From a virus, in the IMG/VR virus record IMGVR_UViG_3300047550_001512, positions 1-23,162 of that record: a stretch of 23,162 nucleotides of DNA. One strand, given 5' to 3'. Both the position numbers and the translations under genes were made by a program. A model generated the notes under the pieces. The model was not told the origin of the DNA. It made no database searches and worked only from the letters and a program-made list of their open reading frames with translations. Positions 2,048-9,495 of this stretch are shown here, piece after piece (within the stretch, counting starts at the first letter, position 1; each line of letters begins with the position of its first letter).

Positions 2048-2460
2048 ATGAGCAAGAAAAAGGAATTGCAAGAGGCAGCCAGATTATTGATGGATATGGG
2101 GATGATAATAGTCTCGATAGATTACAAGGCTGGGACGATAACCTGCAAACTTATACCAACGCGAGAATAGATGATGAGTTCATCGCAGATGTCTGGCGAG
2201 TCCTCGATGGGGCAGGCAATCTCCTCATCCGTAAGCACAAAGATTACGGGCCGAAGAATATCGCTCACAGTCCAGGTGGAGCACTCAACGGATTACGGGT
2301 GCGAATGCACGATAAAATTGCCAGGATCAATCATCTCGTTGATTCACGAGTTGCACCAAGCAACGAATCCTTGAGAGATTCCTTCGTAGATCTGCTGAAC
2401 TATTCTGCTATTGCAATCCTAGTACTTGAGAATAAGTGGCCTGAACTGCCCAATGACTAA
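2044..2460 (+). CDS. DUF1599 / nucleotide-modification-associated domain 1 protein
   Basis: A 138-residue protein with the signature blocks of PF07659 (DUF1599, also called nucleotide modification associated domain 1): RKHKDYGPKNI at about 63-73, RMHDKIARI at about 87-95 and ESLRDSFVDLLNYSAIA at about 108-124. Literature on this family, from comparative genomics, associates it with phage DNA base modification and nucleotide metabolism; the biochemical activity is not established. AGGAGG lies just upstream of the ATG, which overlaps the primase stop. With two methyltransferases nearby, a role in altered DNA bases is plausible but inferred. Confidence 0.82.
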   Translation: MNEQEKGIARGSQIIDGYGDDNSLDRLQGWDDNLQTYTNARIDDEFIADVWRVLDGAGNLLIRKHKDYGPKNIAHSPGGALNGLRVRMHDKIARINHLVDSRVAPSNESLRDSFVDLLNYSAIAILVLENKWPELPND

Positions 2461-3085
2461 CCTGCATCCTGCCTTCTATGATTTAGTTCCATCAGTAGCC
2501 AACAGTATCTATCGTCGCTATCGTCAATGGACTGAGCGCGAAGATATCATCCAAGAATGCTACGCCTGGGCTATGAGTAGGTCGGATCACTTCACAGATT
2601 TACTCAATGAAGAGAACGCTATCCAGCGGGTTATCAACGAGAAGCGTATTGCGTGGCAGATGCGTAGACACGCAGAGCGTTATGCTCGCAAGGAGAAGGC
2701 TAAGAAGTCTGGCTATCAGATAGGCGATGAATCCTTCTATGACACAGTAGTACTCGGTCAATTACTGCCGCACGTTATTGCATCGGTAGTAGATGGCACA
2801 GTATTGGAAGCAGCACAGAACCTTATCAATGATGGACAACCACGCAGGCAGTCAGCTCCAGCAGAAGGTGGCAACCTTTTGGCTATCCTCATCGACATCA
2901 AGAAGGCTTATCTCAAACTTGATGTAGCTGATAAAGATATTCTCATCAAGAGATACCACGAGAGTGCAACCCTAGAAGAACTGGGTGTCTATCTAGGCTG
3001 TGCTACCTCTACTGCCGATCGTAAAGTCCAGAACGTTATGCGTAGACTGCAGAACCTACTCGGCGGGGAGAGTCCCTACCAGTGA
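2453..3085 (+). CDS. sigma-70-family-like protein (region 2 and region 4 helix-turn-helix)
   Basis: A 210-residue protein. The early segment RQWTEREDIIQECYAWAM resembles sigma region 2. The C-terminal segment, from LDVADKDILIKRYHE to VYLGCATSTADRKVQNVMRR, resembles a sigma region 4 helix-turn-helix. The middle is basic (RRHAERYARKEKAKK). It could redirect host RNA polymerase to phage promoters or simply bind DNA. The start at ATG 2453 overlaps the upstream stop by eight bases; a TTG at 2426 is possible but has no better ribosome site. No clear Shine-Dalgarno sequence is present, so translation is probably coupled. The sigma assignment rests on pattern, not alignment. Confidence 0.68.
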   Translation: MTNLHPAFYDLVPSVANSIYRRYRQWTEREDIIQECYAWAMSRSDHFTDLLNEENAIQRVINEKRIAWQMRRHAERYARKEKAKKSGYQIGDESFYDTVVLGQLLPHVIASVVDGTVLEAAQNLINDGQPRRQSAPAEGGNLLAILIDIKKAYLKLDVADKDILIKRYHESATLEELGVYLGCATSTADRKVQNVMRRLQNLLGGESPYQ

Positions 3086-4429: not shown

Positions 4430-4792
4430 TTATAGTGTATCAACAATACCTTCAATAATCCAATCGACTACAGGTACAGCAACTGCGTTGCCCATCTGTT
4501 TGTATCTGTTGGTATCAGTCTGTCCCTCTGTCCAATTATCAGGGAACCCCTGTAGTCTTTCACATTCTAATGGTGTAAGCCTGCGTACTTGAGTCTCAGC
4601 AACCATTGGCATATTGTTTCCTCCTGTTCCCATACGAGCTTGTAAAGTATTTACTACATCACCTTGCATACGTATATCATTGACTCTATTACCATAGAAT
4701 ACAAATAACGTTTGATCATTAGCTGTTGCCAAAGTTAGACTCCTATCTTCACTCATCAATGGTCCTTTGCCCCCCCCCTGGCTTGCCTTCAC
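4430..4792 (-). CDS. DNA C5-cytosine methyltransferase, C-terminal fragment
   Basis: This frame holds the end of a C5-cytosine methyltransferase: LATANDQTLF, then motif IX (RRLTPLECERLQGFPDNW, about residues 70-87 of the frame) and motif X (QMGNAVAVPVVDW). It lacks the catalytic motifs, which are in the separate N-terminal frame at 4908-5630. The nominal GTG start at 4792 is only where the frame opens. The family sequence continues upstream in another frame (VPTLNAFDNGDIRATT, about 4814-4859) and is rejoined if the nine-G run at 4770-4778 (C on the + strand) loses one base. Unless frameshifted or corrected, this piece is not made as part of an active enzyme. Confidence 0.82.
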   Translation of the reverse strand: MKASQGGGKGPLMSEDRSLTLATANDQTLFVFYGNRVNDIRMQGDVVNTLQARMGTGGNNMPMVAETQVRRLTPLECERLQGFPDNWTEGQTDTNRYKQMGNAVAVPVVDWIIEGIVDTL

Positions 4793-4907
4793 GCATCCGC
4801 ACTACGATAACTGTAGTAGCACGGATATCTCCATTATCAAATGCGTTCAAGGTTGGCACTACCCCCCCTCAATCCACGTCTCATAGTCATCAACATTCTG
4901 CGCCCTC

Positions 4908-5630
4908 CTACTTTTGGTGAACCACAACATTATCTTCAGGCCTTTTGTATGCGGTAGCAGTAAGAGTGGTCACTCCTTCGGAGTATTTTGCGAAGCCTGT
5001 CTGACCAAAGCTTCGTGTAGTGCTGGTGGCAGAGTCTTCTCTCTGCGGTTGGCTCTGCGCAGGATTCCTTCGCACGCTGTCGCGCTCAAATAATACTTTG
5101 GCAGGATCTGATTCGTTTCCAGTACGTCTGCCAACGATGAAGACACGCTTCCTGCGTTGGGGTACTCCGAAGTATTGAGCATCAAGCACGCGCCAGGCAA
5201 CAGAGTACCCGAGTTCGGCCATCGTCCCGATGACGAGTCCAAAGTCTGCTCCTTTGTTACTGGATAGCAAACCAGGGACGTTTTCGAGGACGAAGTATTC
5301 TGTTTGCGTTTCTTCCACAAGTCGGGCAATGTGCCAGAATAACCCGCTTCTTTCGCCAGCCAAACCAGCACGCTTGCCAGCGACGCTGAGGTCTTGGCAG
5401 GGAAATCCTCCTGTAATAATTCCTCTGCTTGGTTCAAATCCTGCTTCAATTAGATCACTGCCTTTCACTTGGGTTACATCAGAAAATATCTTGGACTCAG
5501 GGAAGTGACGAGCAAGGACAGACTGACAGTTCTTATCTATCTCTACGCTTGCCACCACCTTTACATTATGGTTCTTCATAGCAATCTCAAAGCCACCCAC
5601 TCCAGCAAAGAGTGATACTCCTGTAATCAC
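4908..5630 (-). CDS. DNA C5-cytosine methyltransferase, N-terminal catalytic part (interrupted gene)
   Basis: The 240-residue product carries motif I (FAGVGGFEIA, 8-17), motif IV with the catalytic cysteine (GGFPCQDLS, Cys78), motif VI (ENVPG, 116-120) and motif VIII (QRRKRVFIVG, 158-167), as in Dcm/M.HhaI-type enzymes that methylate cytosine C5. The start is GTG with GAGGAGGG just upstream. The frame stops at a TAG right after NVVVHQK, before the target-recognition end and motifs IX-X. Those follow in other frames: SRRAQNVDDYETWIEG (about 4869-4912), then VPTLNAFDNGD, then 4430-4792. Losing one A at the A4 run, gaining one G at the G7 run and losing one G at the G9 run would restore a protein of about 400 residues. 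Confidence 0.88.
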   Translation of the reverse strand: MITGVSLFAGVGGFEIAMKNHNVKVVASVEIDKNCQSVLARHFPESKIFSDVTQVKGSDLIEAGFEPSRGIITGGFPCQDLSVAGKRAGLAGERSGLFWHIARLVEETQTEYFVLENVPGLLSSNKGADFGLVIGTMAELGYSVAWRVLDAQYFGVPQRRKRVFIVGRRTGNESDPAKVLFERDSVRRNPAQSQPQREDSATSTTRSFGQTGFAKYSEGVTTLTATAYKRPEDNVVVHQK

Positions 5631-8876: not shown

Positions 8877-9244
8877 TAGATAGCAGAAAATAAATCTAGG
8901 GCGTGTCGGGTTAGGTGATAGATAGGCGATCCGATAGCTGGAAAGGGTAAGTCTCAAGGATAGGTCTAGGGTTAGGTAGCTCATAACCTATCGCCGCGAT
9001 CTAGCGGCGGCGTGAATTGTTTAATCGGTAGGGCGAAAGATATTAAATAATAGGGCGCGAGGGTGCCGAGGTTGGTGTCACCCTCTCGCGCTATCCTTAC
9101 AGCTACGCGATCGGTGCCCCCTGCCCTATCGTCACGCCGAAAGCGTGACCCTAGGGTGCTTAAACGCAGATAACCGCGTACTGTATACCCTCACAAAATT
9201 TCTCGACTAAAGTCGATCCCTTTTGCTTCGTCCGTATTGTCCGT

Positions 9245-9250
9245 ATTATA
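9245..9250 (-). promoter_or_regulatory. candidate -10 element (TATAAT) facing the - strand operon
   Basis: A perfect TATAAT reads on the - strand. The -35 position is poor (GTGACT, 19 bases away) and falls in the CRP-like palindrome. A transcript from here would have a leader of about 440 bases before the first - strand gene, passing the nearer promoter at 8847-8876. Confidence 0.4.
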
Positions 9251-9260
9251 CCGCTATATC

Positions 9261-9276
9261 TGTGACGTTAGTCACA
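9261..9276. promoter_or_regulatory. CRP/GlxR-type operator palindrome
   Basis: TGTGACGTTAGTCACA matches TGTGA-N6-TCACA exactly, the consensus of the CRP family including the GlxR and Crp regulators of Actinobacteria. It lies between a - strand TATAAT (9245-9250) and a + strand extended -10 (9292-9300), about 38 bases before the expected + start. Host cAMP-responsive control is inferred from the motif only. Confidence 0.55.
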
Positions 9277-9291
9277 TCTATAAAGATTTTT

Positions 9292-9300
9292 TGCTATTAT
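9292..9300 (+). promoter_or_regulatory. extended -10 promoter element for the terminase/head operon
   Basis: TGCTATTAT is an extended -10 (TG-n-TATTAT). There is no good -35, as is common for extended or activator-dependent promoters, and the CRP-like palindrome covers that zone. The predicted start near 9307 would give a leader of about 200 bases before terminase. Confidence 0.45.
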
Positions 9301-9325
9301 GCGGGAAATGACTTTTTTTTCCCGC
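9301..9325. repeat. inverted repeat GCGGGAAA/TTTCCCGC around a T run
   Basis: Eight-base perfect arms (9301-9308 and 9318-9325) enclose a loop ending in a T run; the T8 run itself spans 9313-9320 and forms part of the right arm. It starts directly after the + strand -10 element, so it would overlap the transcription start. It could be an operator rather than a terminator, since the T run is not after the stem. Confidence 0.5.
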
Positions 9326-9342
9326 CTAATATACAGTAGGGA

Positions 9343-9495
9343 GCAAATGCGACCAGCAGTCCAGCATTTGCGACCGTACGGAGGGCTGCGCTCACGCTAC
9401 GCCCTTTAGGGTGTAGGGGGAAGCAGACCTACCTCGCGTTGGCCTGTAGGCTGAACGCGAGAGCCTGCGCCGCGATAGCGTAGCGCAAGCGGCGC
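9343..9495 (+). ncRNA. candidate structured leader RNA upstream of terminase
   Basis: Four consecutive stems are possible on the + strand transcript: GCAAATGC/GCATTTGC (9343-9371); AGGGC/GCCCT with inner GCG/CGC (9382-9405); CTCGCGTT/AACGCGAG (9433-9461) with an inner GCCT-GT-AGGC; and GCGCCGC/GCGGCGC (9467-9495). TGCGACC occurs twice (9348-9354, 9369-9375). No reading frame with a ribosome site was found in this stretch. It could be a regulatory leader, a packaging-related RNA or simply DNA-level palindromes; I do not recognise a known RNA family. Confidence 0.4.

Follow-up and report, generated by a model that had tools for sequence, protein, structure and literature searches.

What purpose might a palindrome matching a host regulator's binding site serve between two divergent gene blocks of an uncultured virus, and which protein would read it? 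Our window is the whole stretch of DNA analysed, all 23,162 bases (positions 1-23,162) of IMG/VR virus record IMGVR_UViG_3300047550_001512. A first-pass annotation made from the sequence alone had described a perfect TGTGA-N6-TCACA palindrome at 9261-9276, and TGTGACGTTAGTCACA stands at exactly those positions. It is the sole exact match in 23,162 bases, where about 0.02 would be expected, and it also fits the S. coelicolor Crp consensus GTG(N)6GNCAC (PMC10033298). The divergent layout described in that annotation likewise holds, with - strand ORFs reaching 8529 on the left and, on the + strand from 9505, terL, then portal, then a 1,535-residue giant protein. Farther left, at 4430-5630 on the - strand, two ORFs correspond to two parts of Pfam PF00145, a cytosine DNA methylase that appears to be split by frameshift or decay. 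No close DNA match to the window was found in phage records, no prophage or host match in a TerL search of genome contigs, and no match in Rfam. The features discussed below are collected in Table 1.

Table 1. Features around the palindrome, in window coordinates.
Feature	Position	Strand	Basis or remark
Terminus element ACCCTAGGGTGCTTAA	9148-9163	+	Pattern ACCC-N-TGNTTAA or close to it
Predicted inner end of direct terminal repeat	9184-9188		Homology with Beephvirinae isolates
Degenerate 'site 1' position CTAAAGTCGATCCC	9207-9220		CTAAAGTGAACCAGATCACT in relatives, 46 bp before site 2
TATAAT	9245-9250	-	Named in first-pass annotation; not conserved
CRP/GlxR-type dyad TGTGACGTTAGTCACA (TGTGA-N6-TCACA)	9261-9276		Homologue of Beephvirinae 'site 2'; consensus match and conservation
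TG-C-TATTAT	9292-9300	+	Named in first-pass annotation; not conserved
Inverted repeat GCGGGAAA-N9-TTTCCCGC	9301-9325		Between CRP site and -10-like block
-10-like block TAATATACAGTAGGG	9327-9341	+	Conserved in relatives; predicted promoter element
Large terminase subunit (TerL), N-terminal helix-turn-helix-like segment	9505-11400	+	First gene of rightward late operon

Conservation of the half-sites among relatives had been named as the check on the palindrome, and it was borne out. We counted every 5-mer dyad with a spacer of 0-14 (15,360 possible), without prior choice of motif, in the regions upstream of terL in 77 dereplicated representatives, and TGTGA-N6-TCACA ranked first. The exact form occurred in 41 of the 77 regions against a maximum of 3 in shuffled sequences, where TGTGA-N6 itself gave 0-1; the representatives belong to one phage group, so these occurrences are not independent events. 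In most IMG/VR relatives, the dyad precedes terL by about 210-340 bp, with half-sites varying among TGTGA, AGTGA and CGTGA on one side and TCACA, CCACA and ACACA on the other. GTG/CAC is mostly spared by sequence changes, which are seen at the outer base, at the A/T step and in the N6 spacer, and the half-sites are better kept than the spacer. In nearly all records scanned, the genome has just a single site or a single pair, located in the terminus region. Judged by sequence comparison, TGTGACGTTAGTCACA is a true, conserved CRP-type site, above chance.

Soil relatives have the same site pair or one of the two, and some lack site 2 or have it replaced. In L215, L227, L230, L231, L242, L245 and L246, TTACCAAA-type repeats stand upstream of terL instead of site 2, as if another regulator had taken over its place. 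The spacing between sites 1 and 2 varies from 46 to 69 bp overall, and their helical phasing is suggestive only. A scan of viral contigs for tandem sites returned 106 stretches, only some of which are contigs already known from this phage group. In 16 of the 77 representatives, the 1 kb preceding terL also contains DnaA-box-like copies of TTATCCACA; such copies lie upstream of terL in L007, L009, L036, L065, L075, L320 and L323.

We used cultivated relatives to place the site on the phage genome. The nearest by TerL are Planktophila phages E7 and F5 (PMC10202952), at 46% identity, followed at approximately 42-43% by Streptomyces phages of the subfamily Beephvirinae, one of which, Abafar, is podoviral and predicted to be virulent (PMC11536984). 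Within the phage collection, the giant protein matches Streptomyces phages only, at about 25%. Six Beephvirinae isolates have recorded terminal repeats of 253-276 bp ending 28-30 bp before site 1, which reads TGTGAN6TCACA (with one mismatch in FlowerPower); their site 2 has one mismatch and lies 46-57 bp beyond site 1. The Abafar record has a 396 bp repeat spanning both sites. In the Beephvirinae isolates, the repeat end is preceded at about 23 bp by a terminus element. Searching with a pattern (ACCC-N-TGNTTAA or close to it) that was picked after inspecting the sequences placed this element at the corresponding position in 22 of the 31 freshwater-type representatives and in 26 of the 30 of soil type, compared with about one expected from shuffles. 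When the soil terminus block was run as a profile against freshwater upstream regions, no significant match emerged (E 0.25 and 0.71), so the genome-end prediction depends on the pattern-derived element. Its presence in the window places the predicted genome end near 9186, with site 2 farther from the predicted cut than site 1. With that end, the leftward operon of the linear genome would lie at its opposite extremity, leaving the site on the TerL side.

This proximity raises the alternative that the phage terminase reads the dyad through the N-terminal helix-turn-helix of TerL, as at the R-sites of lambda cosB, to mark the concatemer cut. The 28-30 bp between site 1 and the repeat end in six isolates fits such a role, as do a terminus element conserved in its own right and a TerL N-terminus that resembles a helix-turn-helix (for the Immanuel3 homologue, HTH_23 fell below the Pfam cut-off, with E 0.017). 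However, the recognition segment of that helix-turn-helix varies by group (SMKSYEYYRR, TEAQYKYLRQ, NDVTFRQWSM) while the dyad is constant in the first two, and this speaks against reading by terminase. The terminus element also persists where no exact dyad adjoins the terminus, in L267 and in E7 and F5 (L183 and L198; OX376640 and OX376641). The exact sites of E7 and F5 lie about 350-430 bp further out in the same intergenic stretch, near the leftward genes. Moreover, a match to the CRP consensus would not be expected of a site read by terminase. We consider a packaging site unlikely on this balance. It is somewhat less likely still that host CRP, a protein that bends DNA, acts in late transcription and also in processing of the genome end, where its role would be that of IHF at lambda cos; packaging would then be tied to the host regulator along with late expression.

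The identity of the reader can be approached from the host side. Of 30 related records, 24 encode WhiB, among them G001, the long record nearest to the window (98% TerL identity), and for this reason the hosts of these phages are most likely Actinobacteria. We found no WhiB in the window record, which is a fragment whose nearest relative has one. Of the 148 Actinomycetes genomes sampled, 143 had a CRP homologue, and its recognition helix, GASRETVNKAL, was identical in all 17 read. Across 60 Actinomycetes genomes, the exact motif gave 187 matches against 13 for the control. A search of 30 phage records turned up no phage-encoded CRP-type helix-turn-helix. Spacer letters of the phage sites track host preferences. 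The overlap between soil-phage and host N6 sequences is close to what common base preferences would give: the 7 overlaps compare with 0.8 expected under uniform N6 and with 5.8 from those preferences. Separately, WGTGAN6TCACW was depleted in 15 small actinobacterial genomes (1.0-1.5 Mb; 10 matches versus 45 for the reversed control) though CRP is present.

A different phage or host protein with a similar dyad, such as a phage sigma factor, a WhiB partner or a BldD-like protein, is an improbable reader. The window has a sigma-factor-like gene, relatives have WhiB, and we counted in favor of such a protein the AGTGA-N6-TCACT variants, which resemble the BldD half-site. Against it, the most frequent form is TGTGA-N6-TCACA, a motif enriched in Actinomycetes genomes, nearly all of which bear CRP, and we know of no sigma or WhiB protein that binds such dyads. 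The sigma-factor-like protein is encoded at 2426-3085 on the + strand (PHROG sigma-K), and its counterpart in Immanuel3, of the Beephvirinae, is annotated as sigma-K.

If host CRP is the reader, the distance from site to promoter becomes informative. We predicted the start 7 bp past the -10-like hexamer and compared site centres with class I positions, near -61.5, -71.5/-72.5 or -82.5 from the start. Thirteen soil/Streptomyces representatives have a strong -10-like hexamer, and in 12 of them the TerL-nearest site is centred 60.5-62.5 bp upstream of the predicted start, the single-site phages L224 and L226 among them. The distance from site to -10-like block is nearly constant in these Streptomyces and soil relatives, and, on the predicted starts, their site-to-start layout would be the class I (lac-like) CRP geometry. 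Nine freshwater representatives, in one clade, have the site centre 59.5 bp upstream of the predicted start, and the window's own clade has it at approximately 70.5-75.5 bp. In the window, the late start is predicted at about 9339-9344, some 70-75 bp downstream of the TGTGACGTTAGTCACA centre. In many freshwater relatives, the inverted repeat within this interval has 8-10 bp arms; in others it is weaker or absent, and arm sequences differ among relatives (GGCAGGAAA/TTTCCTGCC).

We return to the host regulator. The palindrome is probably a host CRP/GlxR site serving the promoter of the rightward late operon, with class I activation the most likely mode. In this virulent-type phage, the host's own CRP/GlxR would bind TGTGACGTTAGTCACA a short way in from the left genome end and, once bound, would bring RNA polymerase to the late promoter as at class I sites, so that the long rightward operon beginning with terL is switched on. 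From these sequences we infer CRP binding in vivo, activation and not repression, the start site, and cAMP dependence. The link to host carbon status suggested in the first-pass annotation is conjectural, and cAMP is no simple carbon signal in Actinobacteria. Counted against the CRP reading were the distance of about 70-75 bp in the window's clade (with -10 and start predicted), the soil phages without site 2 or with a replacement for it, the arrangement in E7 and F5, the motif depletion in the 15 small genomes, and the absence of WhiB from the window record.

The two -10 elements that the first-pass annotation had placed on either side of the palindrome are there as letters, at 9245-9250 and 9292-9300, but their conservation fails. 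Relatives L002-L005, whose terminase is 98% identical, read CATTAT in place of TATTAT, so TG-C-TATTAT is not conserved, and the TATAAT is missing from L006, L009 and L043. The model built on these elements, in which one protein toggles between the leftward early and the rightward late operon, is very unlikely: both hexamers exist and the site does lie between divergent genes, but neither hexamer is conserved and the predicted genome end near 9186 parts the two operons in linear DNA, so that, if the terminus prediction is right, the switch could work only on joined ends.

Our search of the open-access literature for phages with CRP/GlxR returned nothing relevant, and a CRP-site arrangement beside a phage terminus seems undescribed in the literature searched. 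Because the site is kept in many distant lake and soil relatives, these results suggest that viruses of Actinobacteria have long made use of host CRP, probably to activate late genes. If true, the dependence of the late operon on one host regulator would have been kept across deep divergence (TerL ~43%) between phages of soil Streptomyces and of freshwater Actinobacteria. This would constitute a conserved virus-host regulatory link open to test in laboratory phages, and it would help account for the dependence of infection on host physiology. The arrangement would also allow genome ends to be marked from sequence in many uncultured actinophages.

When placed in context of known systems, the locus combines familiar parts. 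Class I CRP promoters of the lac type (-61.5) have the same dyad, a similarly poor -35, and the distance found in Streptomyces and soil relatives (60.5-62.5 bp to predicted starts). They differ from the window's clade, where the distance is 70-75 bp, an inverted repeat lies between the site and the -10-like block, and the site heads the late operon of a virulent-type phage. Regulon sites of M. tuberculosis CRP, C. glutamicum GlxR and S. coelicolor Crp follow the same consensus as the window site, which differs in being on a phage genome beside a predicted terminus. Lambda cosB and the T7/T3 concatemer junction also bring short binding sites and a promoter together near a genome end, upstream of the terminase genes. 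In contrast to these, the dyad here matches a host regulator and no terminase site, and it is dispensable in some relatives. Closest are the Beephvirinae (Immanuel3, WRightOn, FlowerPower, Manuel, Stella, Dennebes and Abafar). Although their TerL is only ~43% identical, their genomes are GC-rich, and their terminal repeats are recorded where ours is predicted, they have in common with the window phage a giant protein homologue and the order of terminal-repeat end, site pair, -10-like block and TerL.
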